Source: Syntrophus sp. PtaU1.Bin005
Lineage (GTDB): Bacteria; Desulfobacterota; Syntrophia; Syntrophales; Syntrophaceae
Length of the DNA stretch: 64,000 nucleotides
NCBI GenBank assembly: GCA_002067745.1
Contig: MVRU01000007.1
Coordinates: 1-64,000, forward strand
Direction of reading: 5' to 3'
Each line of letters begins with the position of its first letter. Position 1 is the stretch's first letter. This document shows, piece by piece, positions 49,126 to 53,896 of this stretch. The notes under the pieces are model-generated. The model worked only from the letters and a program-made list of their open reading frames with translations. It was not told the DNA's origin and did no database searches. The translations under genes were made by a program, and so were the position numbers.

Positions 49126-50562
49126 CTATGAGGCGGCACCCAGTTTTTTGGCAAGCAACTCCCGTATGATCTTCGGATTGGCCTTCCCGCCCGAGGCCTG
49201 CATCACCCGACCGATGAGAAATCCCATGGCTTTGCCCTGTCCGCGCCGGAAATCGGCAACAGCCTCCGCCTGTTCCTCCAGCACCCCGTCGATCATGGCG
49301 TCCAAGGCGTTTGGATCGGATACCTGCCGGAATCCAAGGGCCCCCACGATTTCTTCCGGCGCTTCATCGCCGTCGAAGAGGCGGACAAGCACCTCCCGTG
49401 CGGCGTTGGCGTTGATTTCATCCCTGGAGAGCATGTTGAGCAGCGCGGCAAAGCGGGCCGGCGTCACCGGCGTACCGGCCAGCTCCTGACACCGCTCTCT
49501 GACGGCGGGCGCCAGCTGTGTAGTCAGCCAGTGCATGGCCGTGCGCGGCGCGATTCCTTGATCGATCAACGCGTCGAAGTAGTTTGAAACCTCCGGGTCC
49601 GAACTCATGAAGGTCGCCTCTTCTCCGGTGAGGCCGTACTGCGCAACAAAACGCTCGGCCCGCTCGGCAGGCATTTCCGGAAGACGCGAACGCATCGCTT
49701 CGATCCATTCCCCTGACAGTTCAATGACCGGCACCGTGGGGTCCGGAACGCAGGGGCCCTCAAACTTCCCCCGCATCGCAAGGGTGACTTTCTTTTCCGG
49801 ATCCCAGAGGCGGGTGTGGAGGGTCACCGCCTCTCCCGCCTGCACGGCCGCACTCTGGCGGCTGATCTCGTAGGCGATGGCATCGCCCACGTGGCGGATG
49901 GAATTCATATTTTTCACTTCCACCTTGGTGTTCATCTGGCCCGTCCCCCGGGGACGGATGGAAATGTTCGCATCGACGCGCATCGTGCCGTTTTCCATGC
50001 TGCACTCGGAAGACCCGATATAACGGACCCGTGTGCGCAGCGCCTTGAGGAATTCCATCGCCTGATGGGGCGTATGAAAGTCCGGTTCCGTGACGATCTC
50101 GACCAGGGGCGCGCCGGCGCGGTTGAAATCCACCAGGCTGATGGGAGACCGCCCTTCCATTTCATGGACCAGCTTGGCGACATCCTCCTCCATGTGGATA
50201 TGATGAATGCGAAGTTTGCTGGGTTTGCCTTCTTCGTCCGTGATGGTGACGGTTCCGCCGCGCGAAAGGGGAAGATGCGCCTGGGAGAGCTGGTAGCCCT
50301 TGGGAAGATCCGGATAGTAGTATACCTTCTGGTCAAAGGCGCTTCTGGGCTGAAGATCCGCCCCAAGCCCCAGGCACAGAAGAGAAGCCTTTTCAACGGC
50401 CTCACGGCTCAGACGGGGAACGGCACCGGGAAGCCACAGGCAGGTGGGGCAGATATTGGTGTTGGGTTCGTCGCCGGGGCGGTTGGGGCAGTCGCAGAAC
50501 AATTTCGTTGCGCAATTGAGTTCAACATGAATTTCCAATCCGATGACCGCTTCAAATTCCAT
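49126..50562 (-). CDS. gatB: Asp-tRNA(Asn)/Glu-tRNA(Gln) amidotransferase subunit B
   Basis: Kinase/transamidase subunit that activates the mischarged aminoacyl-tRNA and adds ammonia. The signature FEAVIGLEIHVEL is at the N-terminus, CDCPNRPGDEPNTNICPTCLWLPGA holds zinc-type cysteines, and FDQKVYYYPDLPKGYQLSQ the active-site lysine region. A C-terminal GatB/YqeY domain (about 330-478) for tRNA is complete. Length 478 is normal. It follows the GatA-like gene by two bases, and no key residue appears lost, in contrast to that GatA. Confidence 0.94.
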   Translation of the reverse strand: MEFEAVIGLEIHVELNCATKLFCDCPNRPGDEPNTNICPTCLWLPGAVPRLSREAVEKASLLCLGLGADLQPRSAFDQKVYYYPDLPKGYQLSQAHLPLSRGGTVTITDEEGKPSKLRIHHIHMEEDVAKLVHEMEGRSPISLVDFNRAGAPLVEIVTEPDFHTPHQAMEFLKALRTRVRYIGSSECSMENGTMRVDANISIRPRGTGQMNTKVEVKNMNSIRHVGDAIAYEISRQSAAVQAGEAVTLHTRLWDPEKKVTLAMRGKFEGPCVPDPTVPVIELSGEWIEAMRSRLPEMPAERAERFVAQYGLTGEEATFMSSDPEVSNYFDALIDQGIAPRTAMHWLTTQLAPAVRERCQELAGTPVTPARFAALLNMLSRDEINANAAREVLVRLFDGDEAPEEIVGALGFRQVSDPNALDAMIDGVLEEQAEAVADFRRGQGKAMGFLIGRVMQASGGKANPKIIRELLAKKLGAAS

Positions 50563-50564
50563 TG

Positions 50565-51764
50565 CTAGTTACCTCCCTTGCCCATGGTCAGAAGATGCCC
50601 GCCCAGGTCGAGGAGACGCGCGTCGCTGAGCCTCGGGGCAACCAGTTGAACCCCCGGCTGATCTTCGCCCGTGGCCGATGGAAGGTACAACACGGGCTGA
50701 CCGGTTACATTGGCGAAAGCCGTCAGGGAAAACCGGGCGTAGAGGTCGGTTATCGACGCCGGGTCACCGGATGAGGCGCCGCTCACAGCCGGCAGGACCA
50801 GGAAGTCCACCTGCGACAGAATTCCAGCCATCTCCTTGACCAGACGGGCGCGGATGCGGCAGGCGTTTTCATAGGCGTCGTAGCGCTCAAACTGGAAAAA
50901 GGCGCCCTGAAACAGATAGCTCTTCACCAGCGGTCCAAAGGCCGCGCCGCGTGAGAGGAGATACATCTCGTTCCAGTTTCTGGCCCCCGGGATGCGCTGA
51001 CCGTAACGGACCGAGTCGTAGCGCCCGGCACAGGAAGAGGCTTCCACGGAACCGACGATGTTATGGACAAGCGAAAACAGGGGAAATTCCGGCAGGGAGA
51101 TCTCCCGTATGGCAAAGCCCGCCCGATTCAGATCTTCCACGGAGGCGCTGAAGGCGTCCTTATGCCCGCCGTTCAATTCGCCCTGAGCTTCGGCAAGAAC
51201 GCCGACGGTCGTCGTCTGCGGGTCCACCGGCCGGGGGGAAAAATCCGGGATCTCCTCTCCGGGAAGGGAAAAATCCCTGTCGTCCGGTCCGGCCACGGCC
51301 TTGAGAATCTCCCGAAGAGTCTCCAGGCTTCCGGAAAGGAGCCCGCAGCATTCCATGGACGGGATCAAACCGACCACACCGAAGCGGGACACCAGGCCGT
51401 AGCTCGGTTTGAAACCGCAGCAGGCTGCGCGCGAAGCGGCCAGGCGGCTCTCTCCCGTCAGGTCTAACACAAGCTCGGCATCGGCTTCCCTACGGGAAAT
51501 TGCCTCGCCGGCCCTGCTTCCCTCCAGGCCGAAGCCGAATTCGCTCATGCGCGTTGACCCGCACAACGAGGCCCCGGCCTGACGGAGCCGCTGCACAAGG
51601 GTTGCGTCCTCCAGCGCCGTAAAATTGGCAAGGGCCTTTGAACCTGCGTCTGTCGGCCAGGATGCCACGGAAATGTTCGGCTGAATCGCAATGTTCACCC
51701 CCTGTAACGGACCGCCCCCGGAAAGGCTGTTTTCAGGACTGCGATAGAAAAATATTGAATCCAT
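50565..51764 (-). CDS. GatA-like protein with degenerate amidase signature
   Basis: A 399-residue homologue of the GatA amidase (usually about 485). It matches GatA over DATLVQRLRQAGASLCGSTRMSEFGFG, GFKPSYGLVSRFG, SSCAGRYDSVRYG and ANVTGQPVLYLPS. The usual first 50 residues are missing. The catalytic lysine segment IAIKDN reads IAIQPN, and the Gly/Ser-rich GGSSGGSAA block with the cis-serine is gone, the remaining piece reading LTGESRLAASRA. A serine may survive at the nucleophile position, but the Ser-cisSer-Lys triad is not intact. The frame is open and well placed between aspS-gatC and gatB, so it is retained, not a fresh pseudogene. It may act as a scaffold. Confidence 0.85.
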   Translation of the reverse strand: MDSIFFYRSPENSLSGGGPLQGVNIAIQPNISVASWPTDAGSKALANFTALEDATLVQRLRQAGASLCGSTRMSEFGFGLEGSRAGEAISRREADAELVLDLTGESRLAASRAACCGFKPSYGLVSRFGVVGLIPSMECCGLLSGSLETLREILKAVAGPDDRDFSLPGEEIPDFSPRPVDPQTTTVGVLAEAQGELNGGHKDAFSASVEDLNRAGFAIREISLPEFPLFSLVHNIVGSVEASSCAGRYDSVRYGQRIPGARNWNEMYLLSRGAAFGPLVKSYLFQGAFFQFERYDAYENACRIRARLVKEMAGILSQVDFLVLPAVSGASSGDPASITDLYARFSLTAFANVTGQPVLYLPSATGEDQPGVQLVAPRLSDARLLDLGGHLLTMGKGGN

Positions 51765-51778
51765 TCAAATGTCTCCCC

Positions 51779-53896
<2,118 letters not shown>

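Follow-up and report, generated by a model that had tools for sequence, protein, structure and literature searches.

A conserved gene cassette encoding an AspRS–GatC fusion, a GatA homologue without the amidase triad and a GatB paralogue in Syntrophus and other genomes

The cassette and the genomes that carry it

The DNA analysed here (the window) comprises 64,000 nt of Syntrophus sp. PtaU1.Bin005, positions 1–64,000 of contig MVRU01000007.1 (assembly GCA_002067745.1). It contains a three-gene cassette (Table 1) in which aspS2-gatC lies upstream of gatA*, and gatB* downstream. The intergenic gaps are 14 and 2 nt, identical to the medians over 85 loci, and the three genes are adjacent in nearly all loci. 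The initial annotation had described these genes as an intact gat operon. A gat operon is present, but its gatC has been joined to the 3′ end of aspS, and the genome has a canonical gatCAB at another site, to which this operon is paralogous.

Table 1. Positions of the cassette genes and of the fused GatC domain in the window
Feature	Position	Strand	Description
aspS2-gatC	51779..53896	(-)	705 aa; bacterial-type AspRS (about residues 1–600) and GatC domain (634–700)
C-terminal GatC domain of AspRS fusion	51779..51997	(-)	End of the aspS2-gatC ORF
gatA*	50565..51764	(-)	GatA-fold subunit, 399 aa, without amidase triad; Lys to Gln28, cis-Ser loop deleted, Ser to Glu105; replaced glutamine site His234, Tyr283, Phe345
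gatB*	49126..50562	(-)	GatB paralogue, 478 aa; ATP/Mg/Zn residues intact; C-terminal YqeY tRNA-binding domain; DYRYF motif replaced by FEGPC

No other shared neighbour was seen, the flanking genes differing among loci on inspection of the relatives and GTDB contigs. The neighbourhoods of the loci contained neither a biosynthetic gene travelling with the cassette nor a linked glutaminase gene; no tRNA gene was found near the cassette, and no riboswitch or other RNA in the cassette region. A search for upstream sigma-54 promoters gave one in 1 of 76 loci, the same as in shuffled sequence, and thus revealed no nitrogen-regulation signal. A sub-threshold Rfam match to a CRISPR direct repeat inside aspS2 (window 53358–53393, minus strand; 27 bits, cut-off 38) was taken as chance.

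The aspS2-gatC product contains the Pfam domains tRNA-synt_2, GAD and GatC in that order. It matches NCBIfam NF009460 (PRK12820, bifunctional AspRS-GatC) over its full length with 1319 bits, just under the cut-off of 1379 bits, and the AspRS-GatC fusion is an already annotated family. The catalytic and aspartate-pocket motifs of AspRS2 match those of ordinary AspRS. AspRS2 has His33 and a Gly within RDHGG and RLEG elements, and AspRS1 carries RDHGG and EG too. We take the RDHGG and EG elements to be the signature of a non-discriminating AspRS, and aspartylation of tRNA(Asn) by AspRS2 is predicted on this basis. In the tree the 79 fused AspRS2 sequences make up one clade (support 0.69), at the base of which stand four unfused sequences, and a single origin of the fusion is therefore probable. 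The unfused relatives (L198, L199, L200 and L201) are found beside purF, and three of the four adjoin carA-guaA-carB (gene names by sequence recognition), unusual surroundings for a synthetase. Two genomes with unfused AspRS2 (G039 and G057) also carry AsnRS.

The cassette was found in 14 of 60 order-level genomes, that of the window included, and in 18 of 395 genomes of a phylum-wide sample, in one of them partially. Carriers include the isolates Desulfosarcina alkanivorans PL12, Desulfocicer vacuolatum DSM 3385 and Desulforhabdus sp. TSK, as well as a genome of the same genus assembled as a single contig of 3,179,300 bases (G003). In each of the 16 cassette genomes checked (17 entries searched, G347 and G445 being identical), the GatB genes numbered exactly two, a canonical one and a GatB*. 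Carriage of the cassette was not associated with AsnRS (5 of 18 cassette genomes versus 159 of 377 others; Fisher p = 0.33) or with strong asparagine-synthase hits (p = 0.54). There were no plasmid-borne close relatives at 60% identity or above.

Searches of the window's own assembly with Amidase, GatB_N and GatC found each domain twice, once in the window and once on contig C35. The canonical gatC-gatA-gatB on C35 encodes a GatA with the full triad, and a second, ordinary AspRS is encoded on contig C17. The tRNA(Asn) of this genome has a U1-A72 end, a recognition feature for GatCAB. The normal route to Asn-tRNA is therefore complete without the window cassette, and given the canonical gatCAB and ordinary AspRS the cassette adds a parallel system and is not the sole amidotransferase. 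The full-length catalytic gatA, present with its own gatB and gatC, supplies one half of what the initial annotation had named as refuting its idea; the cassette complex is an addition, and not the cell's own amidotransferase made ammonia-dependent. The search for a second gatA, asnS and asnB that had been recommended thus yielded the gatA; AsnRS was absent from the assembly, and asparagine synthase gave weak partial hits only.

A second tRNA-Asn(GTT) lies on contig C34 of the same genome (L268, 4287–4362, minus strand) and shares 86% identity with the main one. Its U8 and A14 have been replaced by C8 and G14, and its Rfam score is weak at 36 bits, marking it as a divergent or decaying copy. 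A tie between this tRNA and the cassette was rejected, since relatives without the cassette can also have a second copy, and the two copies in G003 are identical.

Loss of the glutaminase site from GatA* and changes in GatB*

The gatA* ORF is open and clean. Aligned with the canonical GatA of its own genome (485 residues counted from ATG), GatA* is 86 residues shorter, has IAIQPN where the canonical protein has IALKDI, and is missing the ERIPGGSSGGSAA stretch that contains the cis-Ser. In the nucleophile motif, DTGGS has become DLTGES, Glu105 replacing the Ser. Against Aquifex GatA (3h0l), Lys72 is equivalent to Gln28 and Ser171 to Glu105 of GatA*. The alignment therefore bears out the initial annotation, which had noted IAIQPN for IAIKDN, the deleted cis-Ser block, a deficit of about 85 residues and a clean frame; the replacement of the nucleophile Ser and the altered glutamine-binding residues had escaped it. 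GatA* scores 181 bits with Pfam Amidase and 224 bits with NCBIfam gatA (TIGR00132), under the latter's cut-off of 481.

These changes are general among the orthologues, as counted over 84 distinct GatA* sequences. The nucleophile Ser177 is replaced by Glu and the cis-Ser153 loop is deleted in 84/84; Lys78 is retained in none, and is Gln in 73. A Tyr contributes to glutamine binding in the S. aureus enzyme; the corresponding Tyr308 is His in 84/84. At the other glutamine-site positions, Arg357 is replaced by Tyr or Phe in 82 and Asp424 by Phe in 74 of the sequences. The roles of the Arg, the Asp and the triad were assigned in yeast GatA (PMC4027206). Thus neither the Ser-cisSer-Lys triad nor the glutamine-binding Tyr, Arg and Asp are present in GatA*. 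As the triad is gone and the glutamine-site residues have been replaced as well, use of glutamine by a complex containing GatA* is predicted to be very unlikely.

Other positions are strongly constrained. Six residues (E105, H234, G247, W264, N265 and Q291) are invariant in all GatA* sequences, and 42 of 201 canonical GatA invariants are kept at 95% or more, including the EASS and DGVRYG.R stretches. Median dN/dS between close pairs is 0.22 for GatA*, 0.10 for GatB* and 0.10 for AspRS2. By these sequence measures GatA* has been rebuilt and has not decayed. The AlphaFold model of GatA* (pLDDT 91, pTM 0.92) has as its top matches the GatA chains of GatFAB, GatCAB and transamidosomes (Z 46–48, rmsd about 2.2, up to 396 residues aligned), and the model thus indicates that the overall GatA fold is kept, as had been anticipated for the remainder of the protein. 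The earlier idea that GatA is retained as a structural, non-glutaminase subunit also fits these sequences, because there is no triad, selection is purifying, and the fold is kept along with many GatA-specific residues.

GatB* matches Pfam PF02934 and PF02637 and exceeds the cut-off for NCBIfam GatB. Its model (pLDDT 84) has a fold match to GatB with Z 30–33. The four zinc-type Cys, which in GatB coordinate zinc, are invariant in GatB*, and so are E10, H12, E125, E155, N199 and S201. Residues equivalent to these six, mapped by motif, have been assigned to ATP and Mg (PMC4027206). The Thr of the EIVTEPD stretch is also present in the window GatB*. The DYRYF motif, by contrast, is found in 33/33 canonical GatB and in 0/91 GatB* sequences, so that the description of GatB as normal holds for the ATP, Mg and Zn residues but not for this motif. 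Its loss could mean altered transamidase chemistry of GatB*. There are further consistent switches in GatB*, namely Ala77 to Asp, Arg78 to Gln, Phe82 to Tyr and Ala-Gly to Val-Ala at 128–129, which lie close in sequence to the conserved Lys88 and Glu125. All GatB* sequences fall into one clade with a long stem (0.88) and low node support (0.56).

Possible functions of the cassette

We propose that the cassette encodes an amidotransferase for Asp-tRNA(Asn) that is tethered to AspRS and, in analogy to CPS1, uses free ammonia, and estimate the probability of this reading at roughly 0.45. AspRS2, with GatC on its C-terminus, would charge tRNA(Asn) with aspartate, and the GatC domain of the fusion would hold GatA* and GatB*. 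GatB* would phosphorylate the Asp side chain with ATP and then amidate it, and GatA* would serve as a scaffold that hydrolyses no glutamine. The former GatA active site would probably be the mouth for uptake of free ammonium, comprising the invariant Glu105 and His234 and the aromatic residues at 283 and 345; the appearance of Glu, His and aromatics at the old site suggests such an ammonium-binding role. Because the glutamine chemistry is gone and the kinase/transamidase core is kept, ammonia from solution would be the simplest nitrogen source. Also in favour of this reading are the close adjacency of the three genes, the purifying selection on them, the conserved ATP, Mg and aspartate-pocket residues, and the absence of AsnRS from the window's assembly. 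Truncation of yeast GatF is known to raise NH4Cl-dependent transamidation by GatFAB (PMC4027206), and human CPS1 keeps an inactive ancestral glutaminase domain and takes free ammonia from the environment (PMC4655335).

Confidence in the ammonia reading is held down mainly by the constant presence of a canonical GatCAB and by the loss of DYRYF. Every cassette genome checked has the canonical enzyme, and there is therefore no obvious need for a second route; the AsnRS of five cassette genomes in the phylum-wide sample also counts against it, as does the lack of a nitrogen-regulation signal in the promoter search. A broader formulation is that the cassette complexes form a widespread, previously undescribed clade with a rebuilt GatA pocket (Ser to Glu, Tyr to His, Arg and Asp to aromatic), serving for ammonium capture and entry or as a site for another acceptor, and that, with the covalently attached AspRS, they provide anaerobes with a second route from Asp-tRNA that needs no glutamine. 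We advance this only tentatively, and would not expect it to hold in full.

The same features could be accounted for by a different reaction on Asp-tRNA, in which GatB* activates the side chain but a compound other than ammonia is the acceptor, or the product is used outside translation. On this view the role of the rebuilt pocket of GatA* (Glu, His, Trp, Gln, Tyr/Phe) would be to bind or prepare another substrate. Such a reaction would explain why the GatA* site has acquired new invariant residues and has not decayed at random, why GatB* has consistent switches near 77–82 and 128–129 and no DYRYF, and why the cassette is always added to the canonical system. However, no biosynthetic gene accompanies the cassette, and AspRS2 and GatB* keep the standard features for binding Asp, ATP and tRNA; we consider this reading unlikely, though worth keeping in mind.

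A further alternative is that GatA* is a scaffold only, and that a separate glutaminase or the canonical GatA supplies the ammonia in trans. A canonical GatCAB always accompanies the cassette in the cell, and the unfused AspRS2 relatives adjoin the glutamine amidotransferase genes purF, carA, guaA and carB. Set against this, the cassette itself has no linked glutaminase gene, and the Glu, His and aromatic replacements show a uniformity beyond what a pure scaffold requires, making supply in trans improbable. It is at least as hard to sustain a role in regulation or quality control, whereby the complex would bind or sequester charged or mischarged Asp-tRNA, or tune the canonical pathway, without amidating. 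Coexistence with a full pathway and loss of the GatB DYRYF motif would be in keeping with it, but the strictly conserved catalytic motifs of AspRS2 and ATP/Mg site of GatB* would be needless in a non-catalytic regulator, and we give it little credence. Finally, a decaying duplicate or an assembly or frameshift artefact (an error at 51400–51560 had been envisaged) might be suspected from the short, triad-less GatA*, but can be dismissed, because the lesion recurs in 84 distinct orthologues, which come from many assemblies, isolates and the single-contig genome of the same genus among them, and dN/dS is well below 1.

If the ammonia reading is correct, syntrophs and sulfate reducers would possess in the cassette a counterpart, at the level of tRNA, to ammonia-dependent CPS1. 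These organisms live with a low energy yield and often with high ammonium. The cassette would also share the ammonia-dependent Asp-to-Asn logic of AsnA, the ammonia-dependent asparagine synthetase, which acts on free aspartate and uses no tRNA. To our knowledge, all known GatCAB enzymes couple a glutaminase to the amidating site. The cassette resembles canonical GatCAB in the GatA fold, the GatB catalytic core and YqeY domain, the GatC domain and the order gatA-gatB. It differs in that GatA* has no triad or glutamine site, GatB* has no DYRYF, GatC is fused to AspRS, and the cassette stands beside the canonical GatCAB and does not replace it. The asparagine transamidosome of AspRS, GatCAB and tRNA(Asn) (PDB 3kfu and 4wj3) brings together the same three activities; in the putative complex of the cassette, AspRS and GatC are covalently joined and the glutaminase subunit is dead. 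CPS1 is likewise a former glutamine amidotransferase that has kept its glutaminase domain in inactive form and runs on free ammonia (PMC4655335), but its fold and reaction are unrelated to those of GatCAB, so the likeness is one of analogy, not homology. NF009460/PRK12820 has the same domain architecture as the aspS2-gatC product, and its annotation is silent on the GatA lesion of the operon partner. A limited literature search found no paper on a glutaminase-dead GatA paralogue or clade or on an AspRS-GatC fusion, an absence that is weak evidence.

A conserved clade that has lost the glutaminase, and kept a GatA subunit together with its own synthetase, makes roles of GatA beyond ammonia production directly testable. 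Annotation pipelines may label the cassette proteins as ordinary GatA, GatB and AspRS, and nitrogen metabolism would then be misstated in such genomes. Close copies of the cassette were also observed in metagenome bins labelled Chloroflexota, Verrucomicrobiota, Acidobacteriota, Planctomycetes, Lentisphaerae and Actinomycetota (L082, L083, L085, L092, L093, L094, L102, L105 and L106), and may be transfers or mis-binned contigs.
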